Below are positions 10,742-34,740 of a stretch of 64,000 nt of DNA, one piece after another (position 1 is the stretch's first letter; the number at the start of each line of letters is the position of its first letter). The notes beneath the pieces are model-generated. The model was given only the letters and a program-made list of their open reading frames with translations, was not told the DNA's origin and searched no databases. The DNA is taken from assembly GCF_023061185.1 (NCBI RefSeq), contig NZ_JAKGAK010000006.1, positions 1 through 64,000 of the forward strand, in the 5' to 3' direction. A program made the position numbers and the translations under genes. The DNA comes from Chromohalobacter beijerinckii. GTDB lineage: Bacteria > Pseudomonadota > Gammaproteobacteria > Pseudomonadales > Halomonadaceae.

Positions 10742-10763
10742 TCGCCCGCGAGGAGAACCGACC

Positions 10764-17093: not shown

Positions 17094-17095
17094 TT

Positions 17096-17148
17096 TGTCC
17101 AATAATTTGCGATGTCTATTAATAATGTACGCTTGTAAAAATTGGACA
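17096..17148. promoter_or_regulatory. Inverted repeat in front of the AbiE-like pair
   Basis: TGTCCAAT (17096-17103) and ATTGGACA (17141-17148) are perfect inverted 8-mers 37 bp apart, flanking an AT-rich stretch that must hold the promoter. AbiEi antitoxins repress their own operon by binding inverted repeats, which suits this arrangement. Confidence 0.5.
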
Positions 17149-18773: not shown

Positions 18774-18984
18774 GCTCAGTACGCTCACCCGTTATCGTGT
18801 TGCCTCGCGCCGGAGTGTCGACGACGACTGACCGGTGCTTCGAGGCATTCGTGTCATGGGGCCACTATATCGTGCATGAAGTGTCATGTGGGGATGGACC
18901 TGCCGGCTAGCCAGGTAGCAGGCGTCATGCCATTGCATGAAAATGCCGCATGCGATGCGTGGTTCACCTGACGCCATGGCACTC

Positions 18985-20136: not shown

Positions 20137-20996
20137 GTGTCGCCAGCCTCCGGAGCGGTGATTTCTCCCCGGCCGTTGCCCAGCCAGGTGAGAATCAGGA
20201 TGAACACGAACAAGGTGATGACCAGCGCGCTGGTGAAGTGCCCGCTTTCGCGACGCACGTTGAATAGATAGATCTGCAGCGTTTCGAAGCGCGTACCTAC
20301 CAGCATGTTGGCGAAGACGAACTCGCCGATCAGAAACGAGAACGACAGGAAGATCGCGATGCGAATGCCCAGGCGCATATTGGGCAGGATGACGTTGAAA
20401 AACGCTGTCAGCGGGCTGGCCCCCAGTAACTGTGCGGCTTCCATCAGCTCGTTGGCCTCGAAGCTTCTCAGACTGTTGATCAACGAGCGGTACATGAACG
20501 GCAGCGCAATCGAGACATAGGTCAGCATCAAAATCCACGGCGTGCCCACCAGCGGCAGCGGTCCGCCGGCATAGAGCTGTAGCAGACCCACCGAGGAGAC
20601 CACCGGTGGTACGGCGAATGGCGCCAGTATCAGCACGTTCATCCAGCGGTCCAGCCGCGGGTAACGGGTATGCGCCAGAAACGCCACGGGCAAGATCAAC
20701 ACCAGCGACAGCATTAGCGCGCCGGCCACCACGAACAGCGAGCGCCCGAATGCGGCGATAAAGCGCGGCGTCGACCACAGTCGGGCCAGCCATTCCAGCG
20801 TCAGCCCATCCGGTAGCAGCGTGGCGCCCCAGCGAGTGGAAACGGCGTAGAGCAGCGTAGCCAGCAGTGGCAGGGCCAGCGCCGTGAAGACGGGAATGGC
20901 GATCCAGACATGCAGGCGCAAACGACGCGCTGGCGATGTCGTGGGTCCGTCCCTGGCTGGCATGGCCGTGGACCGAGGCTCAGTGATCAGTGACAT
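20133..20996 (-). CDS. ABC importer permease (PhnV/PotC-like)
   Basis: 287 aa from ATG 20996. Six hydrophobic segments and the cytoplasmic coupling motif EANELMEAAQLLGASPLTAFFNVILPNMR (about residues 180-210) mark a binding-protein-dependent permease. Its stop overlaps the ATPase start (ATGA) and its start overlaps the partner permease by 17 bp, so the genes are translationally coupled. Confidence 0.85.
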   Translation of the reverse strand: MSLITEPRSTAMPARDGPTTSPARRLRLHVWIAIPVFTALALPLLATLLYAVSTRWGATLLPDGLTLEWLARLWSTPRFIAAFGRSLFVVAGALMLSLVLILPVAFLAHTRYPRLDRWMNVLILAPFAVPPVVSSVGLLQLYAGGPLPLVGTPWILMLTYVSIALPFMYRSLINSLRSFEANELMEAAQLLGASPLTAFFNVILPNMRLGIRIAIFLSFSFLIGEFVFANMLVGTRFETLQIYLFNVRRESGHFTSALVITLFVFILILTWLGNGRGEITAPEAGDT

Positions 20997-21822
20997 GATG
21001 GCTCCGGCGCAGCAGACGCTGTTGAACCAGTGTGATCGTTGCCAGCAATCCGACCAGCAGCAGTGACAGGGCACTTGCAAGCTCCGGCTGCAGGAAGAGG
21101 TCGCCCGCGACCAGGTTGGCGATGCGAATGGTCATCAGGTTGTAGTTGTTGCCGACCAGCGCAAAAACCGTAGCGTAGGTGCCCACGGCGTTGGCCAGCA
21201 GAATGGTCAGCGTGCCCGCGATGCTTGGCCAGAGCACCGGGAGGCCAATGTAGCGCCAGTAGTCGTGGCGCCCGGCACCGAGAAGGCTGGCCGACTCGCG
21301 CCACTCCGCACGCAACGCGCCGAAGGCGGGCAATAACAGCAACACCCCTAGCGGTACTTGGAACCAGGTGTAGATGATCATCAGGCCGGAGCGCGAGTAG
21401 AGGGAGAAGTCCTCGAACAGTCCTATACGCTGCAAGGCCAGCGTCAGCGCGCCATTGGCGCCCAGCAGGATGATGAAGGCGAAGGCCAATGGCACGCCGG
21501 CGAAATTGCTGGTCATGTTGGTAAACGCGATCAGCAAACGGCGCCAGCGTCCCCCGAGGCGGGTCAGGCTGTAGCAGGTGAGTACGGCGATCACGATGCC
21601 GACGAGGCTTGAAACGATGGCGATTTCCAGCGTGCGCCACATTGCCTGGCGGTAGAACGCCGAGGCGATGATTTCCTGAAAATGCGCCAGGCCCCAGCCG
21701 TCGCCGACGCGAAAGGCGTTGATCGCCACGAACACCAGCGGCGCCAGCTGAAACGCGGCGAACACGACGAAAAACGGCACCACGCACAGGATGGCCGGCG
21801 AGATGAACCGTCGCGCGGTCAT
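20980..21822 (-). CDS. ABC importer permease (PhnU/PotB-like)
   Basis: 280 aa with a signal-anchor-like first helix (ILCVVPFFVVFAAFQLAPLV), six segments and the coupling motif RAEWRESASLLGAGRHDYWRYIGLPVLWPS. It pairs with the permease downstream. Its ATG overlaps the stop of the phosphodiesterase-like gene, tying enzyme and transporter into one operon. Confidence 0.85.
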   Translation of the reverse strand: MTARRFISPAILCVVPFFVVFAAFQLAPLVFVAINAFRVGDGWGLAHFQEIIASAFYRQAMWRTLEIAIVSSLVGIVIAVLTCYSLTRLGGRWRRLLIAFTNMTSNFAGVPLAFAFIILLGANGALTLALQRIGLFEDFSLYSRSGLMIIYTWFQVPLGVLLLLPAFGALRAEWRESASLLGAGRHDYWRYIGLPVLWPSIAGTLTILLANAVGTYATVFALVGNNYNLMTIRIANLVAGDLFLQPELASALSLLLVGLLATITLVQQRLLRRSHHVTDH

Positions 21823-22697
21823 TGCTCGATGCCCTCATGATCGTACGGTGCGATATGCGCTGTCTGTACGTCAGGGCGTTCGAGTATCTCAGGAGCAAGC
21901 AATGCCTCATGGTACGCCTTGGTATGCTTGAGCCCCATCAGCGTGGCGAGCGTGCCGCAGAGTTCGGTCTGGCGCAGGCCGTCGAGGCGCTGATTGGTAA
22001 ATCCCTCACCCAGCGTCCACAGCGGAACATGGCGCTCTTCGGGCAGTGTGCCCGAGTGCGAGCGGTCGGCATTCATGCCGTGGTCGGCGGTGACCACGAT
22101 CTGGTAGCCGGCCTCCCGCCAGCGTGGCAGGTAATCGGCAAGTGCCACGTCGGCGTGACGGGCCGCGTTGCGATATTGCGATGAATCCGCACCGTGGCGA
22201 TGGCCGGCATCGTCGATGTTCATGCTGTGTACCAGCAGGAAGTCCGGGTCCTGCAGTTGACGCAGCATCTCGGCATCGCTGAACAGGTGATCATCGGGAT
22301 AATGATCGCGCCAGTAGAAAAGCCCGGCCTGAATGGCACTCTTCTCGTTTTGGTGAAAGCGGTGACGTGTGCGATCGAACGGCGCCTCGAGATACAGCTC
22401 ACTGACCCAATGATAGGCTGCCGCTGCGGTTCTTCGGCCCTGTCCGACGGCAAGGTCGAACAGGCTGACTTCGTGAGAGCGGCGCACGATCTCATTGTGG
22501 ACCACGCCGGAATCCACTGGACGACGCCCGGTCAGCAAACATTCGTAGAGTGGCCGCGACATGGCGGGCAGCTCGCAGTCTAGCGAGTGATAGGTGGCGC
22601 GGCCGGCTTCGCACAGCGCAGTGAGATACCCCATGGCGTGGTGGCCGACGGCATGGTTAAGGCCGTCGAGAACGACCAGGATGATGCGTTGGGACAT
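21819..22697 (-). CDS. Alkaline-phosphatase-superfamily phosphodiesterase/hydrolase
   Basis: 292 aa. Metal-ligand pattern of the nucleotide pyrophosphatase/phosphodiesterase branch: IILVVLDGLN (Asp), a short PAMSRPLYECLLTG segment where the Ser or Thr nucleophile should lie, DDAGHRHG, and VVTADHGMN. There is no signal peptide, so it acts in the cytoplasm, presumably on the imported compound. It lies between the binding protein and the permeases. Hydrolysis of a phosphate ester or phosphonate is likely; the substrate is unknown. Phosphonoacetate hydrolase belongs to the same superfamily. Confidence 0.75.
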   Translation of the reverse strand: MSQRIILVVLDGLNHAVGHHAMGYLTALCEAGRATYHSLDCELPAMSRPLYECLLTGRRPVDSGVVHNEIVRRSHEVSLFDLAVGQGRRTAAAAYHWVSELYLEAPFDRTRHRFHQNEKSAIQAGLFYWRDHYPDDHLFSDAEMLRQLQDPDFLLVHSMNIDDAGHRHGADSSQYRNAARHADVALADYLPRWREAGYQIVVTADHGMNADRSHSGTLPEERHVPLWTLGEGFTNQRLDGLRQTELCGTLATLMGLKHTKAYHEALLAPEILERPDVQTAHIAPYDHEGIEQ

Positions 22698-22713
22698 GTG
22701 ACGACTCCAGGCC

Positions 22714-22730
22714 GCCTCCGGGATGGAGGC
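22714..22730 (-). promoter_or_regulatory. Intercistronic hairpin after the binding-protein gene
   Basis: GCCTCC (22714-22719) and GGAGGC (22725-22730) form a stem between the binding-protein gene and the hydrolase gene. Hairpins at this place often stabilise the abundant binding-protein mRNA and reduce expression of the following genes. Confidence 0.4.
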
Positions 22731-22789
22731 AGCACGGGTTTCGGCCTAATCAGCGCTGAAAGAGCATCGCCCGAGGCGAGGGCTTGAGC

Positions 22790-23887
22790 TCAGTGCTGAC
22801 GCGTGAGGACTTCGGACTGCCAGAGCTGCGGCAGTTGGCGCGACGTCTGCTCCCAGGCCTCGAAATCTTCGATGGGGCGCGCGTTGGCGTACTCACTGTC
22901 GGGCAGCAGCTTGGCGGCGGTGGCGTCATCGAAGTCGAGGTGTTCGGCCCGGATCGGTCGCGCATAGCCCTTGGCCAGATTGGCCTGACCGGCATCGGAG
23001 AAGATGTATTCGCGGGCCAGCTTGGCGGCGTTAGGGTGCGGTGCGTACTTGTTGATGATCGTGGTATAGCCGGAGACGACCGAGGCATCCGACGGGATCG
23101 ATACCTCGAACCGGTCGCGGTCGATCTGGTCGCGATAGTTCAGGGCGTTGAAGTCCCATAGCAGGCCGACTTCGATCTCGCCTTTCTCCAGTGCGGCGAT
23201 GGTCAGATCGGTCAGCGACAGTCGGCCCTGTTCGGCTAGGTCGCCGAAGAGCTCCAGACCGGGTTGCAAATCGCTCTCGTCGCCACCGCGTGCGTAGGCG
23301 GCGGCCAGTACGGCGGCGTTGTTCTGCGCACCGGAGCCCACCGGGCCGACAGCAACGCTGTAGTCACCCTCGAGCAGGTCGGCGAACGCGTGGGGGCGCT
23401 CGTCTTCGGGCACTAGATCCTTGTTGATGATCATGGCGATGGTACCGGTGTAGGCGAGCGCCCAGTGGCCGTCTTCGTCTTTCGCCCAGTCGGGAATCTG
23501 GTCCCAGTGGGACGGCTTGTACGGCTGGGTCACACCCTGCTCGACGGCAATCGGCCCGAAGGCAATGCCCACATCGCCGATGTCGGCGCTGGCGTTCTCG
23601 CCTTCAGCACGGAACTTGGCGATTTCCTCGGCGGAACTCATGTCGGTGTCGGAATGTTCCAGGCCATACTCTGCTTTCAGGTCGGCCCAGGTATCTTTCC
23701 AATTGGCCCAGCTATCGGGCATGCCGAGGCTGTCGACGCGACCTTCCTGCTGGGCGGCCGCGATCAAGTCATCCATGTTGGGCTGTGCTGCGTTGGCGGC
23801 ACCGGTAAAAAGCGCAAGACTGGCAAGCACGGCCAGCGGCAGGCTGGCGAGTGGGAGACGGGGCGATTTCAAGGCAGCACTCCTCAT
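22790..23887 (-). CDS. Periplasmic binding protein of the phosphonate-type ABC importer
   Basis: 365 aa from ATG 23887, with a signal peptide (LPLASLPLAVLASLALFTGA, then ANA cleavage). It belongs to the family-1 solute-binding proteins (Fe3+/polyamine/AEP type): MDDLIAAAQQEGRVDSLGMP, then GDVGIAFG, ALAYTGTIAMIINKDLV and VSGYTTIINKYA. A TTG at 23872 with AGGAG seven bases upstream may be the real start; both keep the signal peptide. It is the first gene of the operon, reading away from the divergent GntR gene with a HutC-type site in between. Confidence 0.82.
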   Translation of the reverse strand: MRSAALKSPRLPLASLPLAVLASLALFTGAANAAQPNMDDLIAAAQQEGRVDSLGMPDSWANWKDTWADLKAEYGLEHSDTDMSSAEEIAKFRAEGENASADIGDVGIAFGPIAVEQGVTQPYKPSHWDQIPDWAKDEDGHWALAYTGTIAMIINKDLVPEDERPHAFADLLEGDYSVAVGPVGSGAQNNAAVLAAAYARGGDESDLQPGLELFGDLAEQGRLSLTDLTIAALEKGEIEVGLLWDFNALNYRDQIDRDRFEVSIPSDASVVSGYTTIINKYAPHPNAAKLAREYIFSDAGQANLAKGYARPIRAEHLDFDDATAAKLLPDSEYANARPIEDFEAWEQTSRQLPQLWQSEVLTRQH

Positions 23888-23930
23888 ATTGACAACGGAT
23901 CGGGGCACGGAAGCAGGCCGGGGCAACGTG

Positions 23931-24105: not shown

Positions 24106-24891
24106 ATGTCTGCACCCCGTACCCAGCCAATCGCCCTCGAATGTCACCACAGCACTCCCGGCAGCGTCTCGACGCCGACCTGGCATCGTCTGCGCGACGC
24201 CCTGCTCGCCCTGATCGACTCACTGGGTAATAACCGCAAACGGCCGTGCAGGTTACCCGCCGAACGAGAAATGATCGCGCGGTTCTCGACGACCCGAATC
24301 ACGCTGCGCGACGCGTTGACTCAATTGGAAGGCGAAGGGCGAATCTATCGCGAAAATCGGCGCGGCTGGTTTATCGCGCCATCGCGGCTTCACTACGATC
24401 TGCTGGCGGGGTTGGCCTTTCACGACATGGTCGAATCGCAGCAGCGTCAGGCCAGTACGCTGCTGCTCTCGGCGAGTACGGTGCCTGCCCCACTGCACAT
24501 CGCGCGTCGGTTGTGGCTGAGTGAAGGCAGTGCGGTGCAGCGCATCGTGCGGGTGAGGGCCATCGATGGTCGCCGGGTGCTTTACGTCGAGCATCATCTG
24601 CGCCCTGACTGCTTTCCCGGCATTCTGGATTTCGATCTGGCGCAGCACTCACTGACCGCACTCTATCGTCACGAATACTCGATTCGCATTGCGCGAGTCG
24701 ATTACGAACTGGGCTCCACGATCTTCGGAGGTCCGGCGGGAGAGGCGCTGCATGCGACGCCGGGCACGGCGGCCCAGCGGATCACGCGAATCAACCGCGA
24801 CCAGAACGGGCGCGTGGTCGACTGCGACGACGAATACTGGCGCCATGATGCGATCGAGCTCGCACTGAGCGCTGTTCCGCGCGGCGGCTAG
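24106..24891 (+). CDS. GntR/HutC-family regulator with UTRA domain (PhnR/PhnF-like)
   Basis: 261 aa. The N-terminal GntR helix-turn-helix is clear (RLPAEREMIARFSTTRITLRD, about residues 48-68, then LEGEGRIYRENRRGWF), followed by a UTRA ligand-binding domain (VQRIVRVRAIDGRRVLYVEH; LYRHEYSIRIARVDYELG). HutC-type proteins sense small molecules, in phosphonate operons the phosphonate itself. The divergent ABC operon and two HutC-type sites make it the local regulator. Its stop overlaps the end of the next, convergent operon by 4 bp, so no terminator separates them. Confidence 0.88.
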   Translation: MSAPRTQPIALECHHSTPGSVSTPTWHRLRDALLALIDSLGNNRKRPCRLPAEREMIARFSTTRITLRDALTQLEGEGRIYRENRRGWFIAPSRLHYDLLAGLAFHDMVESQQRQASTLLLSASTVPAPLHIARRLWLSEGSAVQRIVRVRAIDGRRVLYVEHHLRPDCFPGILDFDLAQHSLTALYRHEYSIRIARVDYELGSTIFGGPAGEALHATPGTAAQRITRINRDQNGRVVDCDDEYWRHDAIELALSAVPRGG

Positions 24892-25619
24892 CCGGGCAAC
24901 AGGCGTCGGCGTTTGGGAGCGGCGGGGCGAGCGCCGGGGAAGCGATGCTCTATGAGGCGCATCACGCTGGTGAGTACCAGGGTCAGGGCCAGGTAGATGC
25001 CGGCGATGAGCAAAAGCGGTTCGTAGACCAGGAAGGTTTCGTCGCGCACCATGTTGGCGGCCTTGAGCAGGTCCATCAGCGCGATGGTCGAGACCAGCGG
25101 CACCGACTTGAGCAGCAGGATCAGCTCGCCGGTCAGCGTGGGCAGACACATCTGGATGGCGCGCGGCAGCCATAGCCGGTAGAGAATCTGCCAGCGACTC
25201 AGGCCGAAGGCGCGTCCTGCGGCCAGTTCACCCTCGGGCACGCTCAAAAGTGCGCCGCGCAGAACTTCGCCCGTGTAGGCGCCGACGCTCAGCGTGAAAG
25301 TCAGCGCGCCATAGAAGAACGGGTCCCGCAGCAACGGCCAGATCAGGCTCTCCCGCAGGCCTGGAATTTCCGGCAGCAGGCGCCCGACCCCGTCGTAGAA
25401 AAAGAGCAATTGCACGAGCAAGGGCGTGCCGCGTACCACCGTGGTCAGGCCGGTGACCAGCATCGCCAGCGGGCGTGGGCCGCGCAGACGGATCATGGCG
25501 AAGGTCACTGCAAGCGCGAAACCGCAGACGGCCGACACGGCGACCAGCCACAGGGTATTGACGAAGCCTGTCCACAAGGCCTTTTGATAGAACGGATCGC
25601 TCAACCAGGAAAAGTCCAT
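24888..25619 (-). CDS. Polar amino-acid ABC permease (ArtM/HisM-like)
   Basis: 243 aa, last gene of a nine-gene operon. The HisM/ArtM-type coupling motif GRAFGLSRWQILYRLWLPRAIQ and the RGTPLLVQLLFFYDG segment mark a permease for basic or polar amino acids. It forms the membrane channel with the 25632 protein. Only 12 bp separate the two genes. Confidence 0.85.
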   Translation of the reverse strand: MDFSWLSDPFYQKALWTGFVNTLWLVAVSAVCGFALAVTFAMIRLRGPRPLAMLVTGLTTVVRGTPLLVQLLFFYDGVGRLLPEIPGLRESLIWPLLRDPFFYGALTFTLSVGAYTGEVLRGALLSVPEGELAAGRAFGLSRWQILYRLWLPRAIQMCLPTLTGELILLLKSVPLVSTIALMDLLKAANMVRDETFLVYEPLLLIAGIYLALTLVLTSVMRLIEHRFPGARPAAPKRRRLLPG

Positions 25620-25631
25620 GTCTGGGTGCTC

Positions 25632-26336
25632 CTAGGTGCTGGGTTGGCCGCGGCGAACGTGACGCTCCGCGCGGGCGAACAAGGCGTTGGAGCCCAGCGT
25701 CATGACCAGGTAAAGCGCCCCGGCGAGAGCGTAGAACAGGGCATAGTCGCGCGTGCTGGCGGCCGCTTGTTGGGCGGTGAAGAACAATTCTTCGAAGCCG
25801 ATCACGCTGATCAACGCGGTGTCCTTGACCAGGATCAGCCACAGGTTGGACATCCCGGGCAGGGCGTTGGGCAGCATGCCAGGGAGCACGATGCGGTAAA
25901 AACGTGCCGGGCGCGAAAAGCCATAGGCATCGGCGGCTTCCAGCTGCCCTTTGGGGATTGCCTGGATGGCCCCACGGAATACTTCGGTCATGTAGGCGCC
26001 CTGCACGAAGGCGAGCACACCCACGGCGGTGACGAAGCCGCTAATCTCGATGTGCGTATCGCCGCCGAATTCGGCGAGCAAGGCGTTGAGCGCCTGGCTG
26101 CCGGCGTAATACAGCAGGATGATCAACAGTAATTCGGGAATGGCGCGGACCAGCGTGGAATACGCCGTGCCCAGGGCGCGCAGAGGGCGCCAGGGGCTGA
26201 GTCGCGCGGTGGCGCCAATGAGCCCCAGGCCGAGCCCGATGGCATAAGCCAGCAAGGCGATTTCCAGTGTCACCAGGGCGCCTTGCAGGATCGGGCCGAG
26301 CCATTCCAGCAGGCCATCGCTATGATCGCTTGGCAT
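25632..26336 (-). CDS. Polar amino-acid ABC permease (ArtQ/HisQ-like)
   Basis: 234 aa. STLVRAIPELLLIILLYY and the coupling loop EAADAYGFSRPARFYRIVLPGMLPNALPG are typical of HisQ/ArtQ permeases. It is preceded by an intercistronic hairpin after the binding-protein gene and followed at once by its partner permease. Confidence 0.85.
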   Translation of the reverse strand: MPSDHSDGLLEWLGPILQGALVTLEIALLAYAIGLGLGLIGATARLSPWRPLRALGTAYSTLVRAIPELLLIILLYYAGSQALNALLAEFGGDTHIEISGFVTAVGVLAFVQGAYMTEVFRGAIQAIPKGQLEAADAYGFSRPARFYRIVLPGMLPNALPGMSNLWLILVKDTALISVIGFEELFFTAQQAAASTRDYALFYALAGALYLVMTLGSNALFARAERHVRRGQPST

Positions 26337-26364
26337 GGTCGAATCTCGCAGTGTCGGAACGGGA

Positions 26365-26386
26365 CCGGCCGGGCAGGTCCGGCCGG
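26365..26386 (-). promoter_or_regulatory. Intercistronic GC hairpin
   Basis: CCGGCCG (26365-26371) and CGGCCGG (26380-26386) form a strong stem in the 66-bp gap between the amino-acid binding protein and the first permease, a common place for mRNA-stabilising structures in ABC operons. Confidence 0.45.
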
Positions 26387-26402
26387 AGGATCGCGAGGCG
26401 GA

Positions 26403-27191
26403 TCAACCGCCGCAGATGTCGGTGCCGAAGTACTGCTGGGAGAGCTCGGCGCAGCGGCCGTTGTCGAGCACGCTGGCGATCGCGGCGTTGAGCTTGTCGC
26501 GCAGGGCGTCGTCTCTCTGGCGCAGACCGATGCCCACGCCGTCGCCGAAGGCGTCATCACGCGGTGCGGTGGCGCGGATCTCGAAGTCCTGTGCGGCGTC
26601 GCGCTCGACGAATTCCGTCATCGCGATCTTGTCGGCAAGGATGGCATCGACGCGTCCGGCGAGCAGGTCGCGGTTGGCCTGTTCCTGCTGATCGTAGACC
26701 TTGAGCTCGACGCCGGTATCGGCCAGCGAGCGACGTGCGAAGGTGGCGTTGGTGGTCGAGCCCTGAACCCCCAGGATCTTGCCGTCCAGGTCGTCGGGAA
26801 TTTGCATGTCGTTGGCCTTGGCGGTGACGTACGCCGAGGGCGTGAAGTAGTACGGGTCGCTGAAGGCGATGACCCGTTTGCGCTTCTCGGTGATCGACAG
26901 CGAATTCATGATCATGTCGATCTTACCGCTGTTGAGCGCCGGGAAAATCCCGCCCCACCCGGTGGGTGTAATTTCGCACGCGGCGTCCATTTCCTTGCAG
27001 AGCGCCTGGCCCAGTTCGACCTCGAAACCGGTCCAGCTACCATCGGCATCCTTGTAGGTGAACGGCGGGTAGGGCTCTGCCGAGATGCCGATCTTGAGCG
27101 GTTCGTCCGCCATCGCCGAGGTCGCGCTCAGCGCCAGCAGGACAACGCCCGCTGTCTGCATAAGGGTCGCTTTCAGTTGCTTGATCATCAT
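26403..27191 (-). CDS. Polar amino-acid binding protein (ArtJ/LAO-like)
   Basis: 262 aa with signal peptide (VVLLALSATSAMA). The family-3 binding-protein core reads LKIGISAEPYPPFTYKDADG, then GFEVELGQALC, CEITPTGWGGIFPALNSGKI and MNSLSITEKRKRVIAFSDPYY, which closely resembles lysine/arginine/ornithine and arginine-binding proteins. A second ATG three bases later is also possible. Arginine uptake would match the AruH/AruI-like enzymes of the operon, but ligand specificity is inferred. Confidence 0.85.
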   Translation of the reverse strand: MMIKQLKATLMQTAGVVLLALSATSAMADEPLKIGISAEPYPPFTYKDADGSWTGFEVELGQALCKEMDAACEITPTGWGGIFPALNSGKIDMIMNSLSITEKRKRVIAFSDPYYFTPSAYVTAKANDMQIPDDLDGKILGVQGSTTNATFARRSLADTGVELKVYDQQEQANRDLLAGRVDAILADKIAMTEFVERDAAQDFEIRATAPRDDAFGDGVGIGLRQRDDALRDKLNAAIASVLDNGRCAELSQQYFGTDICGG

Positions 27192-27267
27192 GGTTCCCCA
27201 TCGTTGTTGTGTCGGGCCGTGAGGGCCCGGGATGATATGGCGCCTTGGGTGGCGTCACGTGAAAGGC

Positions 27268-28035
27268 TCAGGCCACGCTCGAGACGAACTGACGGCAGCG
27301 CTCACTGGTCGCGGTCTCGAAAACATGCGCGGGGGTGCCAATTTCCTCGACGCAGCCTTGGTGCAGGAAGGCCACCTGGTGAGAGACGTCACGCGCAAAG
27401 CCCATCTCGTGGGTGACCAGCAGCATGGTGCGGCCCTCATCGGCGAGACCGTGGATGACGCCGAGGACCTCGTTGACGAGTTCCGGGTCGAGGGCTGAGG
27501 TGGGCTCGTCGAACAGCAGCACGCGTGGCTCCATGGCCAGGGCCCGGGCGATAGCGACGCGCTGTTGCTGACCGCCGGAAAGATAGGCGGGGTACTGGTC
27601 GCGCTTATCGGCCATGCCGACCCGTTCCAGATAATGCTCCCCCAGTGTGATGGCCTCGCGTTTGGATAGACCACGCACGCGCATGGGGGCCTCGATGACA
27701 TTGCCGAGCACGCTCAGATGCGGCCATAGATTGAATTGCTGGAAGACCATGCTGACCTGAGTGCGCAGGCGTTGTAGTTGGCGCCGGTCGGGCCGGTGGC
27801 GGCGAGCGTGCGAGAAGGCCAGCGACTCGCTGGCAATGGTCAGATCGCCGCTGTCGGGGGTTTCGAGAAGGTTCATGCAGCGCAGCAAGGTACTCTTGCC
27901 GGAGCCACTGGAGCCGATGATGGAGACCACATGGCCTTCATGTACGTCGAGCGAGACGTCCTTGAGGACCTCTAGCTCGGCGTAGCGCTTGACCAGGTGG
28001 CGGGCCTCGATGGCCAGGTTATTGTGATTAGCCAT
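27268..28035 (-). CDS. Polar amino-acid ABC ATPase (HisP/ArtP-like)
   Basis: 255 aa with Walker A GSSGSGKSTLLRCMNLLE, Q-loop VFQQFNLWPHLSVL, signature LSGGQQQRVAIARAL, Walker B VLLFDEPTSALDPEL and the switch His in LLVTHEMGFAR. The insert SFSHARRHRPDRRQLQRLR after the first strands is typical of HisP-type ATPases. It completes the importer with 24888-27191. Confidence 0.9.
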   Translation of the reverse strand: MANHNNLAIEARHLVKRYAELEVLKDVSLDVHEGHVVSIIGSSGSGKSTLLRCMNLLETPDSGDLTIASESLAFSHARRHRPDRRQLQRLRTQVSMVFQQFNLWPHLSVLGNVIEAPMRVRGLSKREAITLGEHYLERVGMADKRDQYPAYLSGGQQQRVAIARALAMEPRVLLFDEPTSALDPELVNEVLGVIHGLADEGRTMLLVTHEMGFARDVSHQVAFLHQGCVEEIGTPAHVFETATSERCRQFVSSVA

Positions 28036-28097
28036 ACCCCTCCTGCAATGAGTGGAAAGATAGCGGCCCGGGTACCGTCACCGGGCCGCGTGTGCGG

Positions 28098-29288
28098 TCA
28101 TGCCTCGGCCGTCGTGCGGCATTTGGCGGCGCAGCGTGCCAGGCGTCGGCAGGCCTCGCGCAGGCGATCGGCATCCACCGTCAAGCTCAAGCGCACGAAG
28201 CCGGACGCCGACGGGCCGAAGGCATCCCCCGCGAGTACCGAGACGCCCTGGGTATCGAGCAAGCGGTCGGCAAAGGCCTGTGCCGACAGCCCGGTGCGGC
28301 GAATGTCGACCATCATGAACATGCCGGCCGCGGGGCGCAGCGCCTCGACGGTATCGTCGTCGGCGAGGGCCTCAAGCACGCTGTCACGGCGCGTCCGGTA
28401 GGTGCGTCGCATCTCGTCGAGCGCTGCAGGCGGGTGGGCCAGGGCCTCGCAGGCGGCATCCTGGATGAAATCGGGGCTGCCATAGAGCATGCACAGCGCC
28501 AGGTGGGTCAGGTGCTGGATCAAGGGCGCAGGGCCGATCACCCAGCCCAGACGCCAGCCGGTCATGGCGTGCGACTTGGAGAGGCTGTTGACGATGGCGG
28601 TGCGCTCACGCATGCCCGCGAGACTATCCGGCGAGAGATGCTCGCCATCGTGGATCAACTCGGCATAGACCTCGTCGGAGAGCAGCCATAGATCATGCTC
28701 GCGGCACAACGCGGCCAGTGCCTCCCAGTGGTCGCGGCTCAGCACCTGACCGGTGGGGTTGTGCGGGCTGTTGAGCAGCAGCGCACGGGTGCGCGGCGTG
28801 ACCGCGGCGGCGAACTCTGCGGGGTCGGGCTGGAACGCATTCGCCGCACGCAACGGCACGCGCACCAGGGTCGCCCCCGCGGCCTGCAGGGCCGCTTCGT
28901 AGGTCACGTACATCGGCTCGGGCACGATCACCTCGTCGCCGGGGTCGAGCACGCACTGCGCCACTGCATACAGGCCGCACTGCGCGCCGGCCATGACCGC
29001 GACATTATCGGCCTGGGTATCCGGTGCGCCGCCGGTTTGGCGGTGCCGGCGCGCGATCAATTCGCGCAGCCGGGCCTTGCCCTGTACATCGGCATAGTGC
29101 GTGGCGCCGGCGCGCAGACTGTCGACCGCGCTGTCGACGATCGGCGTCGGCGTGGCGAAATCCGGATCGCCCACCGAGAGGATGATGACGTCGTCGCCCT
29201 TGGCCTGACGCGCCAGGGCCCGGTAGTGGATGTCCCAGGCGGCGGCACCTTCGCCGGCGATGCGCTGGGTCAGTCGGGAATACTGCAT
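28098..29288 (-). CDS. aruH: Arginine:pyruvate transaminase-like aminotransferase (AruH-like)
   Basis: 396 aa, fold-type I PLP enzyme: NSPHNPTG, DEVYAEL, and the PLP Lys in SLSKSHAMTGWRLGWV. The beginning (YSRLTQRIAGEGAAAWDIHY) and the end (GLSAQAFADRLLD, then GVSVLAGDAFGPSASG) closely follow my recollection of Pseudomonas AruH, which converts L-arginine and pyruvate to 5-guanidino-2-oxopentanoate and alanine. It lies in one operon with an AruI-like decarboxylase and an arginine-type importer. Other 2-amino acids as substrate remain possible. Confidence 0.75.
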   Translation of the reverse strand: MQYSRLTQRIAGEGAAAWDIHYRALARQAKGDDVIILSVGDPDFATPTPIVDSAVDSLRAGATHYADVQGKARLRELIARRHRQTGGAPDTQADNVAVMAGAQCGLYAVAQCVLDPGDEVIVPEPMYVTYEAALQAAGATLVRVPLRAANAFQPDPAEFAAAVTPRTRALLLNSPHNPTGQVLSRDHWEALAALCREHDLWLLSDEVYAELIHDGEHLSPDSLAGMRERTAIVNSLSKSHAMTGWRLGWVIGPAPLIQHLTHLALCMLYGSPDFIQDAACEALAHPPAALDEMRRTYRTRRDSVLEALADDDTVEALRPAAGMFMMVDIRRTGLSAQAFADRLLDTQGVSVLAGDAFGPSASGFVRLSLTVDADRLREACRRLARCAAKCRTTAEA

Positions 29289-29317
29289 GCAAACTCCTTG
29301 CTGGCGGTCGCCGTGCG

Positions 29318-30256
29318 TTACAGGCTGGCCTTGACGGCGGCCAGACCGGGCTTGCCGTCACGGGTGGTGACGCCGTCCAGGAATTCGGCCAGTTCATCGG
29401 GATGATTTTGCAGCCAGACGTGAGCCACCGTCTCGAGCTCGCGCTCTTCCAGGCCGTATTCGCGAATGAAATCGCTTTGTTGATCGGCGGTCAGCACGAA
29501 CTGATCCAGCAGGCGCATGAGGTTGGGGTTGGCCTCACTGAAAGGCTTGGCGACGATGGTGCGCACGTCGCTGCGGCCTTGGTTCTCGCCGTAGATGCCC
29601 TCTGGGTCGTCGAGGATATGCATGTCGAATTCCGGCACCATCCAATGCGGCGTCCAGCCGTAAAAGGCGACCCAGCGCTTCTCGTCGTAGGCGCTGCGCA
29701 CGGCGCTGAGCATGCCGGGTGTCGAAGACTCCAGCAGTTCCCAGTCGCCCAGGCCGTAGGTGTCGTTGCGTTTGGCGTCGTTGATGAAGTCGCTGACCGT
29801 CGAGCCGGACTCGATGGAATAGTAGCGGCCCTCGAAACGTTCGCGGTTCTCGGGATCGTCGAGCTGCTCGGCGCTGGTCACGCCGGCATCGTACACGTAG
29901 CCGGGGACCGCGAAGCCCATGCGTGCACCGGTGACGTTGTTGCCCAGGTCGACGATGCTGCCGTCATCCATCGCGGCGTCGTAGCTAGTCTGCTGAGCGG
30001 GGAGCCAGCCGGCGAGGAAGACGTCGCTGTCGCCGGTTTGCAATGTCTTGTAGCCCACCGTGCTGCTGAGCTCCTGGCGCTCGTTGGTATAGCCCAGCGG
30101 GGCCAGGATCTGCGCCATGATTTCGGTCTTGACCGTGACGCCAGGCCACGGCGGAGCGACGAAGGAGACCTGGGTGGCCTCGTCGGTGGCATGGGCGTGA
30201 GCTGCCAGGGGCAGCAAGGCAAGCGCGGCCATCAGCCGCGTGGTGGTGCGTCGCAT
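29318..30256 (-). CDS. Glycine-betaine/choline-type ABC binding protein (OpuAC/ProX family)
   Basis: 312 aa from ATG 30256 (AGGAGA upstream), with signal peptide (LMAALALLPLAAHAHA). Family signs: SFVAPPWPGVTVKTEIMAQI, DVFLAGWLPAQQ, YYSIESGSTVSDF and the quaternary-amine pocket segment FYGWTPHWMVPEFD. No matching ProV/ProW genes are next to it, so it must work with a transporter elsewhere or as a sensor component. Its presence after TmpA/TmpB-like genes fits uptake of a trimethylammonium compound. Confidence 0.8.
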   Translation of the reverse strand: MRRTTTRLMAALALLPLAAHAHATDEATQVSFVAPPWPGVTVKTEIMAQILAPLGYTNERQELSSTVGYKTLQTGDSDVFLAGWLPAQQTSYDAAMDDGSIVDLGNNVTGARMGFAVPGYVYDAGVTSAEQLDDPENRERFEGRYYSIESGSTVSDFINDAKRNDTYGLGDWELLESSTPGMLSAVRSAYDEKRWVAFYGWTPHWMVPEFDMHILDDPEGIYGENQGRSDVRTIVAKPFSEANPNLMRLLDQFVLTADQQSDFIREYGLEERELETVAHVWLQNHPDELAEFLDGVTTRDGKPGLAAVKASL

Positions 30257-30282
30257 GATGTCTCCTGGTGAATACGATGAAT

Positions 30283-31875
30283 TCAAGCGGACCATCTATC
30301 GGCCTCGACGTCGATCAGGGTCGGCCCCTGGGCTTGGCCCGAGGCCTGCAGCGCCTGGTGCAGCGCGGCACGCGTCGAGACGCGCACGCCGTGGCAGTCC
30401 ATCGACCGGGCCAGTGTCACGAAATCTGGCGCGGCAAGATCGACGCCGAGACGCGGCACGTCCTGGGCGTCCATGTAGCGGCGGATCTCGCCATACCCCG
30501 CGTTGTTCCAGATCACGATTGCCAGGGGCACGCCGGCCTCGCGCGCGGTGGCGATTTCACTGAGGGTGAACATGAGCCCGCCGTCTCCGACCAGCGCGAT
30601 CACCGGCCGCTCGGGCACGCCCAGGGCCGCACCCAGGGCGGCGGGCAGCCCGTAGCCGAGCGTGCCGTAGCCGGTGGCGGCGTTGAACCAGCGGCGTGGC
30701 GCCGGCATCTCGGCGATGAAGTTGCCGGCATATACCGGCCCGGTGGAGTCGCCGACGATGGTGGCGTCGGGCAATGCCTCGCGCAGAGTGTCGAGGAAGT
30801 CGGCGTAGGGGGCGACATCGTCGGCGTCACGCAGCGCCAGCGCCGCCCGGGTGTCGGCGACGCGTGCGGCGCCCTCGCGCGAGGCCTGATGGGGCAGGCG
30901 TTCGAGCAATCCCAGGGCCACTTCTCCGACGTCGGCCAGCAGGGCGAGGTCGGTGGCGTGATTGCGCGCCAGCTGCTGGGCATCGATGTCCACGCGGATC
31001 AGCCGGCCATCGAGCCGAAAGCCGCCATCGAAGGTCAGGTCATAGTCAGTCTCACCGAGTTCGGTGCCCAGCGCCAGTACCACATCGGCGTGGCGGGCGA
31101 GTTCACGGCCGGCGGGCAGGCTTGCGCAGGCGCCGAGGTCGAGCGGGTGATCGCATCCCAGCACGCCCTTGGCGTTGATGGTGGTCATGGCGGGAGCGTC
31201 GAGGCGTTCGACCAGGGTGCGTACCGCGTCGCCGGCAGCGACGCAGCCGCCCCCCAGCAGCACCAGCGGGCGTGCGGCGTCGGCTAGCCAGTCGGCGGCC
31301 CAGGCCAACGCAGCATCGGGGGCCGTCGGCGGAAAGACCTCGGCGATACGCGGCCGGGTCTCGGGCGCGGGCAAGGCCATCACGTCGAGCGGGATTTCGA
31401 TGTGCACGGGGCCGGGGCGGGCGCTCTTGAAGACGGCAAAGGCGCGTCCCAGTACCTCGGGCAGAGCCTCGGGCGTCTGTAGGGTATGGCTGAACACGCT
31501 GACCCCGGACAGGGTGTGTTGCTGATCGGGGAGTTCGTGCAGACGGCCCTGGCCACGACCCAGGGTGTCGCGTCGATTGACGCTGGAAATTACCAGCATG
31601 GGCACCGAGTCGGCGAGCGCCTGGCCCATGGCGGTGGCGATGTTGGTCATGCCCGGGCCGCTGATGATGAAGCAGGCGGCCGGCTTGCCGGTCGCGCGGG
31701 CGTAACCGTCGGCCATGAAGCCGGCTCCTTGCTCGTGGCGCGGCGTTACGTGGCGCAGACCGCTGTCGGGCAGACCGCGGTAAAGCTCGACGGTATGCAC
31801 GCCGGGGATGCCGAAGACGGTCTCGATGCCGTGAGCGACGAGCAACTCGAGCAGGCGATGGGCGCACTGGGTCAT
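30283..31875 (-). CDS. aruI: ThDP-dependent 2-oxoacid decarboxylase (AruI-like)
   Basis: 530 aa from ATG 31875, which overlaps the stop of the HD gene (ATGA). The acetolactate-synthase-like fold shows the catalytic Glu in PRHEQGAGFMADGYAR, FIISGPGMTNIATAMGQA, and the ThDP motif GDGGLMFTLSEIATAREAG ... NN. The opening VFGIPGVHTVELYRGLPDSG resembles 5-guanidino-2-oxopentanoate decarboxylase (AruI), which acts after AruH on arginine. Decarboxylation of another 2-oxoacid, such as a phosphonate-derived one, cannot be excluded given its overlap with the TmpB-like gene. Confidence 0.75.
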   Translation of the reverse strand: MTQCAHRLLELLVAHGIETVFGIPGVHTVELYRGLPDSGLRHVTPRHEQGAGFMADGYARATGKPAACFIISGPGMTNIATAMGQALADSVPMLVISSVNRRDTLGRGQGRLHELPDQQHTLSGVSVFSHTLQTPEALPEVLGRAFAVFKSARPGPVHIEIPLDVMALPAPETRPRIAEVFPPTAPDAALAWAADWLADAARPLVLLGGGCVAAGDAVRTLVERLDAPAMTTINAKGVLGCDHPLDLGACASLPAGRELARHADVVLALGTELGETDYDLTFDGGFRLDGRLIRVDIDAQQLARNHATDLALLADVGEVALGLLERLPHQASREGAARVADTRAALALRDADDVAPYADFLDTLREALPDATIVGDSTGPVYAGNFIAEMPAPRRWFNAATGYGTLGYGLPAALGAALGVPERPVIALVGDGGLMFTLSEIATAREAGVPLAIVIWNNAGYGEIRRYMDAQDVPRLGVDLAAPDFVTLARSMDCHGVRVSTRAALHQALQASGQAQGPTLIDVEADRWSA

Positions 31876-32450
31876 GCCGAGTCCTCGACGCTGGGAGTTT
31901 CGCCGAATGGCGAGCGTGACATGACACGCTCGACCATGGGGATGAAGTCCTCGAGAGGCCGCGTGGGGTAGTCGGGGTCGAAGGCGCACTGGTCCCACTC
32001 GTCGCAGAAGCGCACGGTGCGCGCATAGGCGGGATGATCGCGATAGGCCTCGCGCGCGTGGGGATCCATGCCGTAGAAGGCGCGGTAATGATAGCCCTGG
32101 AACAGCTCGTGATGGCGAATCATCCACACATTGAGCGGATCGATGAAGGGTTCGAGGATCGCCGCGGCAATTTCCGCATGATTGGCGGGCGCCAGGTCGT
32201 CGCCGATGTCGTGGAGCAGGGCGCAGACCACGGTCTCTTCGTCGGCGCCCGCCTCCAACGCGCGGGTGGCGGTTTGCAGGCAATGTTCGTAACGATCGAC
32301 GGGGTAGCCGTGGGTATCGCCCTTGAGCCGCAACAGGTGCTCGAGCACGCGGCGGCTGGCATCGTTCTGGTAGTGCTGGAAATGCGCGTCGATCAATGCC
32401 CAGTCGGCGCGGGTGCTTTCATCGAAACGGGTGAAGGTCGCCTGGTTCAT
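31872..32450 (-). CDS. tmpB: HD-domain diiron oxygenase, TmpB/PhnZ-like
   Basis: 192 aa. HD-type ligands appear in order: YEHCLQTAT, ALLHDIGDD, a later NHAEI, RHHELFQGYHY and an Asp in DEWDQC. This size and pattern match mixed-valent diiron oxygenases of the PhnZ/TmpB group, which cleave the C-P bond of 1-hydroxy-phosphonates. TmpB turns (R)-1-hydroxy-2-(trimethylamino)ethylphosphonate into glycine betaine and phosphate. The gene overlaps the TmpA-like gene (ATGA) upstream, the same pairing as in characterised tmpAB loci. Confidence 0.72.
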   Translation of the reverse strand: MNQATFTRFDESTRADWALIDAHFQHYQNDASRRVLEHLLRLKGDTHGYPVDRYEHCLQTATRALEAGADEETVVCALLHDIGDDLAPANHAEIAAAILEPFIDPLNVWMIRHHELFQGYHYRAFYGMDPHAREAYRDHPAYARTVRFCDEWDQCAFDPDYPTRPLEDFIPMVERVMSRSPFGETPSVEDSA

Positions 32451-33598
32451 GGGGTGACTCCTTGAGCGGTATGCGTTGCGCCATGCCGCGCGCTTCCACC
32501 GAGCACGCGGCGCCGGCTGGCGGTACTGTCGCGATCGACATAGCCCTGGCGCATGTGACGCACGCCTCCCTCGAGCTGGTACGCGGTGCGGCCGTGCAGC
32601 AGCCGATAGTTGTCCATGATCAGCATGTCTCCGGGGCCGAGCTTGAGATGCACGGTCAACGCTTCATCGGTGATCAAGCGATAGAACCGCTGCCGCGCGG
32701 CGTAGTAACGCTCGAGCAGCGCCGCGTCGTGGGCCGCGATGCGTTCCGTGCGGTTGGAGTAGCGCACGCGCGCCAGTTGCCCTCGACTGTCGAGTTCGAT
32801 CAGCGGCCCTTCGCTGGCTAGGTCGGTGGTGGCATCGGTATAGCGAAACTGTGTCGAGAGGTGCGTCAGGCAGTCGAAATCCTCGGGCGCTTCGGCTTTG
32901 AGGCGCTGCGCCGCCATGAAGCCATCGGTGAGCGTGCTGTCGCCCCCGGCGGCGGCATTGCTCAGGCAGTGCAGCCAGATATAGCCGGGAATCGGATCGC
33001 GATAGGGATTGTCGGTGTGCGGCTCGAGCCCGCGTTGCGTCATGGTGAGATCGTACGCGTTGGCCACCGATTTGACGTCGGCGATACCGCCCCAATTGGT
33101 GCGGCGCAGCGGACCGATACGGTCGATCAACGGCTGCATGCCCTCTTCCTCGCAGGGCACGCCGCTGACCTTGACGAAACCGTAACGATGCAGGTCCTCG
33201 AGCATCGCCAGCAGGGCGTCGTCGTCCTCGAGCGCCGAAGCGAAGCTGGCCTGGGGAAGCGTCTCGAGGTTGGCGTCCCATAAGCTGAGTCCGGGCGCGA
33301 CGTCGGCATTGTCGGGCGCAGCGTCGGTGAGCAGTGCATCCAGCGCATAGGTAGTGGTGTGATCGTCGCTGAAGCGTACGTGGAGGGCCTGCGCGTCGCA
33401 GCTTGCCGACTCGATCTGCAGTGTCAGGGGCAACTGGGCGGCCTCGATCAAGCGCTGCCCGGTGCGGGTGTCGAGCGTGGCTGCATCCGGTGCGCGCTCA
33501 CGCAGCCAGAGGGCGGCGAATTCACGCCGCTGGCCGGCGGCGTTCAGAATCAGACGGCGCCCTGCGTCCTGGAGTTCGACGTCGGCGGAAATGGACAT
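32447..33598 (-). CDS. tmpA: Fe(II)/2-oxoglutarate dioxygenase, TmpA / gamma-butyrobetaine-hydroxylase-like
   Basis: 383 aa from ATG 33598. The TauD/BBOX-type core has the His-x-Asp iron ligands in LEPHTDNPYRDPIPGYIWLH (about residues 188-207) and the distal His in NYRLLHGRTAY; the N-terminal ~90 residues (REFAALWLRERAPDAATLD) match the small DUF971-type domain of gamma-butyrobetaine hydroxylases. Of this family, TmpA hydroxylates 2-(trimethylamino)ethylphosphonate, and its constant partner is the HD oxygenase found here immediately downstream. It heads the operon, opposite an AraC regulator. Carnitine synthesis is the alternative, but the TmpB-like partner argues against it. Confidence 0.72.
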   Translation of the reverse strand: MSISADVELQDAGRRLILNAAGQRREFAALWLRERAPDAATLDTRTGQRLIEAAQLPLTLQIESASCDAQALHVRFSDDHTTTYALDALLTDAAPDNADVAPGLSLWDANLETLPQASFASALEDDDALLAMLEDLHRYGFVKVSGVPCEEEGMQPLIDRIGPLRRTNWGGIADVKSVANAYDLTMTQRGLEPHTDNPYRDPIPGYIWLHCLSNAAAGGDSTLTDGFMAAQRLKAEAPEDFDCLTHLSTQFRYTDATTDLASEGPLIELDSRGQLARVRYSNRTERIAAHDAALLERYYAARQRFYRLITDEALTVHLKLGPGDMLIMDNYRLLHGRTAYQLEGGVRHMRQGYVDRDSTASRRRVLGGSARHGATHTAQGVTP

Positions 33599-33726: not shown

Positions 33727-34740
33727 ATGAGCGAGAATGCTAGAACCGATTGGCCCTATCCCCGCCCTGAGCAACCGCCGGTGCCCAAGCCCGGCGACGC
33801 GGCGCATACCGTGAATGTCTGGCTGGTGCCCAATTTCTCGATGCTGACGCTCTTTTGCTTGCTCGAGCCGTTGCGCGTGGCCAACCGCTTCGGTCGCGAG
33901 TTGTTCGCTTGGCGGCTGCTCTCGGCGGATGGCGACCCTGTGGTGGCCAGCAACGGCGTGCGTATCGAGGTCGAGGGTGTTCTGGCGGAACACGCCCTCG
34001 GCGATTTGTTGATGGTGATTTCTTCGTATGAGGCGGAGGTCAGCGTGACCAGCGCCGAGCGCGCAGTGCTTCGGCACGTCGCGGCCCATGGCGGGCGTGT
34101 CGGTGGGCTCGATACCGCGCCCTTCATCCTCGCCCGGGCGGGCTTGCTCGATCAGCATCGCGTGGCGCTGCACTGGGAAAGCGTGCCGGCTTTCCGGGCG
34201 GAGTTTCCGCATATCAGCGTCAGCGAGGCGCGCTTCGAATTCGCCGGACAGCGTTTGACTGGCTCCGGCGGCGCGGCAGGCATCGACATGATGCTGCAAT
34301 GGATCGAACACGATTACGGGCCGGCGTTGGCCAATGCCGTGGGGCGGCAGCTCGTGCACCAGCGCGTTTCCGAGGAAGAAGCCTGGAAGGCCGGCGCGGC
34401 GCGTACCCTGGAGGATTTGCCGCGCAGCGTGGTGCGCGCGCTGGCGGTGATGGAAACCCACCTCGATCAGGTCTTGTCGATCCCCGAGATCTGTCGCCTG
34501 ATCGGCCAGTCCCAGCGCCAGTTGACGCGTCTTTTCATGGCACATTTCGGCGAGACGCCCAAGCAGTGCTATGTGGGAATGCGCCTCGATTATGCCCGGC
34601 GACTGCTCGCCGATAGTCGCTGCCGGGTGACCGAGGCTGCCTTGACCAGCGGCTTCGCGCATTTGGCACACTTCTCGCGCGTCTATCAGGCACGTTTCGG
34701 TGAGCGGCCAAGCGCGACGGCCGAGAGAGGCACCGTGTGA
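33727..34740 (+). CDS. AraC-family regulator with GATase1-like domain (GbdR/ArgR-type)
   Basis: 337 aa. The N-terminal class-I glutamine-amidotransferase-like sensor domain is seen in VNVWLVPNFSMLTLFCLLEP, followed by VISSYEAE and GGLDTAPFILARAG. The C-terminal AraC double helix-turn-helix shows SIPEICRLIGQSQRQLTRLF, then FGETPKQCYVGMRLDYARRL and ALTSGFAHLAHFSRVYQARFG. Regulators of this shape control glycine-betaine (GbdR), carnitine (CdhR) and arginine (Pseudomonas ArgR) catabolism. It is divergent from the tmpA operon by 128 bp and is its likely activator. Confidence 0.85.
   Translation: MSENARTDWPYPRPEQPPVPKPGDAAHTVNVWLVPNFSMLTLFCLLEPLRVANRFGRELFAWRLLSADGDPVVASNGVRIEVEGVLAEHALGDLLMVISSYEAEVSVTSAERAVLRHVAAHGGRVGGLDTAPFILARAGLLDQHRVALHWESVPAFRAEFPHISVSEARFEFAGQRLTGSGGAAGIDMMLQWIEHDYGPALANAVGRQLVHQRVSEEEAWKAGAARTLEDLPRSVVRALAVMETHLDQVLSIPEICRLIGQSQRQLTRLFMAHFGETPKQCYVGMRLDYARRLLADSRCRVTEAALTSGFAHLAHFSRVYQARFGERPSATAERGTV

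Follow-up and report, generated by a model that had tools for sequence, protein, structure and literature searches.

Organization of the locus

The analysis of a 64,000-nucleotide stretch of Chromohalobacter beijerinckii DNA (contig NZ_JAKGAK010000006.1, positions 1 to 64,000; hereafter the window) revealed a putative operon at 24888-33598 of the minus strand, in which genes for a TmpA-like oxygenase and an HD-domain protein precede genes for an AruI-like decarboxylase, an aminotransferase, two binding proteins and the remaining parts of an amino-acid importer. An earlier note on this DNA, made from the sequence alone, had described nine minus-strand genes with overlaps or short gaps. This description was confirmed: all nine open reading frames (ORFs) are present in the ORF list of the window and are densely packed, with intergenic distances, in the order of transcription, of -4, -4, 23, 29, 62, 76, 66 and 12 bp. 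The two 4-bp overlaps are located at the TmpA-like/HD and HD/AruI-like junctions. A promoter scan found 0 sites against 1.5 expected and a terminator scan found 6 against 5.5 expected. The genes of the operon and the divergent regulator are listed below.

32447-33598 (-): TmpA-like 2-oxoglutarate/Fe oxygenase, 383 aa, proposed delta-valerobetaine 2-hydroxylase (NCBIfam TmpA, conserved Fe ligands)
31872-32450 (-): HD-domain di-iron oxygenase-like protein, 192 aa, proposed to cleave C1-C2 of a 2-hydroxy betaine (predicted fold, ligands)
30283-31875 (-): AruI-like thiamine diphosphate (ThDP) 2-oxo-acid decarboxylase, 530 aa (NCBIfam PRK07524)
29318-30259 (-): ChoX/OpuAC-type betaine-binding protein (choline-binding protein model, shared Trp); the ORF may start at 30295 instead
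28098-29288 (-): fold-type I pyridoxal phosphate aminotransferase, 396 aa (NCBIfam scan)
27268-28035 (-): polar amino-acid ABC importer, ATPase (HisP 313 bits, cut-off 466)
26403-27191 (-): polar amino-acid ABC importer, LAO/HisJ-type binding protein (TIGR01096, phmmer)
25632-26336 (-): polar amino-acid ABC importer, HisQ-type permease (HEQRo_perm_3TM 66 bits, cut-off 42)
24888-25619 (-): polar amino-acid ABC importer, HisM-type permease (HEQRo_perm_3TM 51 bits, cut-off 42)
33727-34740 (+): GlxA/AraC-type regulator, transcribed divergently and closest to GbdR (216 bits with that model, cut-off 480), proposed regulator of the operon

Linkage in related genomes

A collection of species genomes was scanned with the HD alignment via two short conserved peptides, so that the resulting set of 78 loci (from the best 80 of 82 relatives) is limited to close relatives. 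Seventy-seven of the loci carry names of Halomonadaceae genera, and the remaining one is from Saccharospirillum. Among the 78 loci, all chosen by their HD gene, a TmpA-like gene is present in 77, a GlxA-type regulator in 76, the aminotransferase in 70, the ChoX-like binding protein in 68, the complete importer in 60, AruI in 58 (split in L115) and an aldehyde dehydrogenase (ALDH) in 35. The TmpA-like gene stands immediately before the HD gene in 77 of 78; in L107 the contig begins at this point. AruI and the aminotransferase occur together in 55 loci; the aminotransferase is alone in 15, AruI is alone, with no aminotransferase within reach, in 3, and neither is found in 5. Some of the ORF maps were drawn by a crude longest-ORF rule, and boxes without a match in them may be wrong frames.

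Two genomes of a second gammaproteobacterial family (G212 and G322, loci L192 and L193) carry the aminotransferase, AruI, HD, TmpA-like and importer genes in a different order, the TmpA-like protein matching at 51%. This rearranged cluster has divergent transcripts and a BetI-like repressor (110 and 107 bits in the two loci, cut-off 118), and the contig of L193 covers the importer only partly. Since AruI and the aminotransferase are linked in 58 and 70 of the 78 loci, respectively, and the linkage recurs in rearranged form in the second family, the arrangement is not due to chance. The comparison of gene order proposed in the earlier note finds that the tmp-like and aru-like parts have stayed together in most relatives, which favours the note's suggestion that the enzymes make up a single new pathway for some other amine. 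We consider it probable that all nine genes act in one joint pathway.

The co-occurrence data could also be explained by a single promoter serving two separate modules, one for a betaine (TmpA-like, HD and ChoX-like proteins) and one for an amino acid (aminotransferase, AruI and importer), which would share no intermediates. The five loci without AruI and aminotransferase, two of which have the importer, are consistent with this explanation, as are ten loci that have the aminotransferase without AruI and importer. It is nevertheless rather unlikely, given the joint presence of AruI and aminotransferase in 55 loci and again in the second-family cluster, where they are rearranged and the transcripts diverge.

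The TmpA-like oxygenase and the HD protein

The TmpA-like protein passes the TmpA model NCBIfam NF049936 with 449 bits (cut-off 400). We compared nine true TmpA sequences with 79 sequences of the A-type, as we call the oxygenase/HD type of this operon; these come from the 77 named loci plus L192 and L193. The Fe ligands H194, D196 and H335 are conserved in 79 of 79 A-type sequences. W169, A173, D183 and M186 are also present in all 79 and in none of the nine true TmpA proteins, in which the corresponding residues are Y, F, N and either Y (six) or F (three), then R, where the A-type has W/A/D/M/R. At the positions that correspond to the aromatic cage of BBOX for trimethylammonium, true TmpA has Y, F, Y or F (6 Y, 3 F) and Y, and the A-type has W, A, M and Y (79/79), so that two of four rings are lost. 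A cage widened in this way, with A in place of F and M in place of Y, would accommodate a longer chain. The A-type is rare: at E<=1e-90 the TmpA-like profile matched 4 of 398 genomes from the phylum.

In the DfmD paper (PMC9296572), N187, N287 and R288 of TmpA are given as phosphonate contacts. The first of these, present in 9/9 true TmpA sequences, is replaced by Asp in 79/79 A-type sequences. Equivalents of the other two are conserved in 79/79; in true TmpA, N287 is found in seven of nine (Ala in two) and R288 in nine of nine. The protein thus passes the family model, but the TmpAB-type name of the earlier note is not supported, the active site being altered in every one of the 79 relatives.

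The HD protein is identical to its counterpart in C. moromii. It passes the Pfam HD model (40 bits, cut-off 22) and falls below the cut-offs of both the TmpB model NCBIfam NF049941 (43.5 bits, cut-off 300) and the Phn-HD model (46.3 bits, cut-off 214.6). Its AlphaFold (AF2) model has a pLDDT of 89; the best Foldseek match is PhnZ (4n6w, TM 0.67/0.72), TmpB (6npa) has a TM of 0.62-0.64 on the query, and all ten PDB chains at E<=0.001 are PhnZ or TmpB. The di-iron ligands H56, H80, D81, H91, H114 and D153 are invariant in 18 HD sequences and align with the ligands of TmpB. By its predicted structure the protein has the fold of the HD mixed-valent di-iron oxygenases (MIOX, PhnZ, TmpB); its oxygenase activity is putative.

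The ligand motif H...HD...H...H...D and the YxxE substrate loop of HD oxygenases are described in a review (PMC8177086). YxxE, a Lys that follows the fourth His, and the RxxD Arg are present in 7/7 TmpB sequences (from nine loci above the TmpB cut-off, two having been removed by filters) and in 0/18 operon-type HD sequences, which have an acidic residue in place of the TmpB Arg. With both models failed and these residues absent, the name "TmpB-like HD oxygenase" is not supported.

These observations bear directly on the function given in the earlier note, namely that TmpA and TmpB turn trimethylaminoethylphosphonate (TMAEP) into glycine betaine and phosphate and are co-transcribed with genes for arginine degradation. 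The score against the TmpA model and the presence next door of a PhnR-like regulator and an ABC cluster of the 2-aminoethylphosphonate (AEP) type point to phosphonate use. Against it stand the failure of the HD protein as a TmpB, the loss of all three TmpB features from its sequence, and the absence of Asn187 from all TmpA-like relatives; furthermore, phosphonate-like neighbours were found beside 0/78 named loci and, among 26 mapped loci, only in L031. We therefore rejected the phosphonate reading, which must be regarded as very improbable.

The AruI-like decarboxylase and the aminotransferase

The AruI-like protein passes the subfamily model for 5-guanidino-2-oxopentanoate decarboxylase, PRK07524 (NF005712), with 802 bits (cut-off 500). 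A second AruI gene was found in the same genome (G000:C23), adjoining a ureohydrolase and an ALDH. The operon AruI is consequently a paralogue, and the second AruI with its ureohydrolase is likely to constitute the arginine route. Both AruI types are present in all 10 genomes of the genus examined. In 12/12 further loci of the arginine type, AruI is accompanied by a ureohydrolase, sharing 79-95% identity with the G000 enzyme, and by an ALDH, and no match was found there to HD, TmpA-like protein, aminotransferase or BBOX2, a gamma-butyrobetaine-dioxygenase homologue that lies near the operon in relatives (323 bits, cut-off 415). In turn, a ureohydrolase was found in 0/78 operon loci.

The operon AruI is 60-67% identical to the arginine-context copies. 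On a tree of 36 of 44 AruI sequences, from which eight near-copies had been removed, all 12 arginine-context copies cluster together with support 93/97; to account for the HD-context copies this tree requires two or more changes, a reading limited by long branches.

For the aminotransferase, none of the 25 best of 83 NCBIfam models passes, GntC coming closest with 303.5 bits of the 415 needed. There is no AruH model among these 25 and, as no listed family model passes, the name AruH is a guess.

The existence of a separate AruI with a ureohydrolase lowers the arginine reading. Together with the missing ureohydrolase and the betaine- and carnitine-type neighbours described below, it argues against arginine degradation, the function named for AruH/AruI in the earlier note, as the main role. 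A wider form of this reading is a single guanidino pathway for arginine, homoarginine or methyl-arginine, in which the TmpA-like and HD proteins would act on a guanidino acid. It would agree with the family model passed by AruI, with the identity to arginine-context copies and with the acidic residues found in place of both Asn187 of TmpA and the Arg of TmpB. It is weakened by the same separate AruI and ureohydrolase, in this genome and in the 12 further loci, by the lack of ureohydrolase in the operon loci, and by regulators, binding protein and neighbours of betaine/carnitine type, and we consider it improbable.

Binding proteins, importer and the link to carnitine catabolism

The ChoX-like binding protein scores 244 bits with the choline-binding protein model TIGR03414, below its cut-off of 379. 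Alignments show that three Trp residues are common to this protein, ChoX and OpuAC, and that Met replaces the choline-box Tyr, a change also seen in OpuAC. This binding protein has no permease of its own in the operon. The LAO/HisJ-type binding protein reaches 232 bits with TIGR01096 (cut-off 256) and 5e-46 with HisJ in phmmer; its aspartate-11 position did not discriminate, the alignment being ambiguous. Both importer permeases pass the HEQRo_perm domain model, and the binding protein and ATPase remain below the cut-offs of their best models. The linked ALDH of relatives is nearest to betaine-aldehyde dehydrogenase (BADH; 450 bits, cut-off 669). The GbdR-like regulator, the OpuAC-type binding protein and the BADH-like ALDH can be read as signs of a quaternary amine.

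A carnitine operon yielding glycine betaine is known from P. aeruginosa and others (PMC5806209). Within 10 kb of the operon, BBOX2 is present in 54/78 loci, in four different placements; carnitine dehydrogenase (CdhA; 412 bits, just under the cut-off of 414) is present in 33/78 and BKACE, which passes Pfam PF05853, in 30/78. In the genome of the operon itself, contig C17 carries BBOX2, CdhA, BKACE and an ORF resembling the C-terminal part of carnitine 3-dehydrogenase. Among 58 relatives, BBOX2 (>=66% identity) was found in 18/19 genomes with an A-type HD (>=73%) and in 0/39 without. The only exception is G003, where CdhA lies at a contig end and BBOX2 would fall off. Counted per genus within the family, the figures are 9/9 and 0/15 (Fisher 8e-7). 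A quaternary-ammonium substrate that feeds the carnitine route is thus quite probable.

Two more distant genomes have an A-type TmpA with its carnitine-type neighbours. In G417 (L260), which belongs to the genus of G212 and G322, there is no linked HD gene, the single HD of the genome being elsewhere; a 2-hydroxyacid dehydrogenase adjoins the aminotransferase and AruI, and BKACE and CdhA follow, 7 kb from the TmpA-like gene. Such a dehydrogenase is what a 2-hydroxy acid intermediate would allow. PIN-domain and RNA-ligase ORFs (L260:11642-13568) separate the TmpA-like gene from AruI at the place where other members of the genus have HD. G714 (L272) belongs to a different class; its TmpA-like gene and BKACE-CdhA point away from each other, 0.25 kb apart, and the single HD of the genome is again elsewhere.

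The proximity of A-type TmpA to BKACE-CdhA in L260 and L272, where no HD is linked, could indicate that the TmpA-like enzyme is a C3 hydroxylase in the manner of BBOX, with delta-valerobetaine or gamma-butyrobetaine as substrate. Its product would then pass to carnitine dehydrogenase and BKACE, and HD would have some other role. In addition, mammalian BBOX is reported to produce 3-hydroxy-valerobetaine (PMC11773067). We hold this explanation to be unlikely, since the 4-bp overlap of the TmpA-like and HD genes and their adjacency in 77/78 loci reproduce the tandem layout of TmpA/TmpB, and since other BBOX homologues in these genomes retain the aromatic positions.

A sulfonium route was also considered, in which S-methylmethionine would be transaminated and decarboxylated to dimethylsulfoniopropionate and then shortened by one carbon. 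The same step logic fits, and a DddP-like protein is encoded near BBOX2 in the genome of the operon, at 331 bits under a cut-off of 600. Such a route would leave unexplained both the linkage to BBOX2, CdhA and BKACE and a cage altered, as it appears, for a longer chain, and we regard it as highly improbable. A second BBOX homologue of the genome (38% to BBOX2) was observed beside a ChoX-like binding protein (45%) at L249:7096-9209.

The proposed pathway

On the basis of gene content, linkage, co-occurrence, active-site changes and the predicted HD fold, all of them observed, we propose substrates and an order of steps in which the locus would be one catabolic operon for N6,N6,N6-trimethyl-lysine (TML) and delta-valerobetaine (5-trimethylammoniopentanoate). 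This assignment is tentative and falls somewhat short of an even chance. TML would be imported by the LAO-type ABC importer and converted by the aminotransferase to 2-oxo-6-trimethylammoniohexanoate, which the AruI-like ThDP enzyme would decarboxylate to 5-trimethylammoniopentanal. The BADH-nearest ALDH, linked in 35/78 relatives and absent from the window, would oxidize the aldehyde to delta-valerobetaine; the ChoX/OpuAC-type protein may import this betaine directly. The TmpA-like enzyme would then hydroxylate delta-valerobetaine at C2, and the HD di-iron enzyme, with O2, would split C1-C2 to give gamma-butyrobetaine and CO2. Finally, BBOX2, carnitine dehydrogenase and BKACE, encoded elsewhere in the genome, would lead to carnitine and then to glycine betaine. 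Every gene of the operon would be useful in this scheme, because a C5 betaine derived from TML must lose exactly one carbon to give gamma-butyrobetaine. That the chemistry is exactly as proposed is tentative as well, and we would put it slightly lower.

The last two reactions of the operon would be the carboxylate counterpart of TmpA/TmpB phosphonate chemistry. In the latter, the carbon adjacent to the phosphonate is hydroxylated and cleavage follows, so that a trimethylammonium compound loses its phosphonate and becomes glycine betaine. The two systems share a tandem of BBOX-family 2-oxoglutarate oxygenase and HD di-iron oxygenase, the predicted fold and metal ligands, and probably a trimethylammonium substrate; they differ in that the operon HD falls below the TmpB cut-off and has no YxxE, Lys or RxxD, that the cage and Asn187 are altered, and that conserved phosphonate neighbours are missing. 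Compared with PhnY/PhnZ, which act on 2-aminoethylphosphonate, the HD model has PhnZ as its nearest solved fold, but the partner oxygenase of the operon is of the TmpA/BBOX family and YxxE and RxxD are absent from HD. The AruH/AruI arginine transaminase route resembles the operon in an AruI that passes the model and in an adjoining aminotransferase; it is distinguished by the other AruI with ureohydrolase in the genome, by the lack of ureohydrolase with the operon and by an aminotransferase that passes no listed model. Many relatives have genes of gamma-butyrobetaine and carnitine catabolism (BBOX, carnitine dehydrogenase, BKACE) in the vicinity of the operon, and it is there that the proposed product would enter; the operon itself would work upstream of gamma-butyrobetaine. 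Eukaryotic carnitine synthesis shares with the proposal the start from TML and the gamma-butyrobetaine intermediate. In eukaryotes TML is hydroxylated at C3 and then cleaved by an aldolase, whereas the operon would deaminate, decarboxylate and shorten from the acid end. Among the literature matches listed (titles and starts of abstracts, with most subscription journals outside), there was no aerobic bacterial pathway for valerobetaine or trimethyl-lysine.

A number of observations weigh against this proposal. AruI is missing in 20/78 loci, 15 of which retain the aminotransferase, and in one such genome (G011) no AruI was detected genome-wide at E<=1e-120; both genes are missing in 5/78. The ALDH is not linked in 43/78 loci, and none was found in the 64-kb window. 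The A-type TmpA occurs without a linked HD in L260, and in L272 it lies near carnitine genes without HD, AruI or aminotransferase (a 32% aminotransferase match is 8 kb off). The sequence of AruI does not separate operon copies from arginine-context copies: there are eight fixed differences, and three distant copies share two of the eight with each side and match neither side at four. An ALDH of this type and a close AruI also serve the arginine-type loci. An Asp (D183 of the TmpA-like enzyme) at the position of the TmpA Asn would not be expected where a carboxylate binds, although R283 is retained. The co-occurrence counts are phylogenetically non-independent and are weakened by shared ancestry. 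A weaker BBOX homologue (38-41%) is present in 4/39 genomes without A-type HD, the distribution of CdhA is broader (18/19 genomes with A-type HD and 8/39 without), and the BBOX homologues of the genome itself score under the BBOX cut-off.

B-type pairs and the wider HD group

In a second group, the B-type, the TmpA-like partners of HD retain the aromatic cage and share the Asp (6/6 used, after exclusion of one fragment and one 29% outlier). On the P. aeruginosa plasmid pF045_1 (L266:6872-12829) a B-type TauD/HD pair precedes genes for a choline-binding protein (458 bits against a cut-off of 379), a choline dehydrogenase (756 against 605) and a BADH-nearest ALDH (425 against 669). This arrangement suggests that the B-type pair would convert beta-alanine betaine to glycine betaine. 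Pairing with a TmpA-like enzyme is no rule for the wider HD group, as a TmpA-like match is absent from 10/18 mapped loci with HD relatives. At L043:9215-12183 a C-type HD is flanked by an aldolase II family protein on one side and a wax ester synthase on the other; no TmpA-like match was found within reach.

Both types could belong to a general bacterial mode of shortening betaines from the acid end, in which a 2-oxoglutarate oxygenase hydroxylates the position adjoining the carboxylate, whose carbon is then released as CO2 by an HD di-iron enzyme. The A-type would act on delta-valerobetaine from trimethyl-lysine, as part of a bacterial trimethyl-lysine-to-carnitine route, and the B-type on beta-alanine betaine from homocholine to give glycine betaine; the TMAEP pathway would be a side branch. 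We offer this generalization as possible, if doubtful.

Other features of the window

The remaining features of the window are listed below.

24106-24891 (+): PhnR-like GntR regulator adjoining the operon (225 bits, cut-off 297)
18985-23926 (-): AEP-type ABC cluster with PhnS-like binding protein, permease and ATPase ORFs and a type I phosphodiesterase-like protein, beside the operon only in L031 among the 26 mapped loci
9075-12986 (+) and 17168-18788 (-): subunits of molybdenum hydroxylase type (Fer2, MoCoBD); genes resembling MobA and XdhC are close by
15245-17102 (-): overlapping ORFs for an AbiEii-like nucleotidyltransferase and an AbiEi_2 antitoxin (Pfam), likely a type IV toxin-antitoxin
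2001-4000: GC 0.437, against 0.50-0.69 in the other 2-kb steps; possible mobile island
31-597: integrase-like ORF (judged by eye), near this low-GC region

Implications

The NCBIfam TmpA model labels enzymes whose active sites are unlike that of TmpA. If the proposed pathway is true, a substrate would be assigned to a group of HD oxygenases and TmpA-like oxygenases, and bacteria would have a route from trimethyl-lysine, freed by the decay of methylated proteins, to carnitine and glycine betaine. It would also explain the removal of delta-valerobetaine under air.

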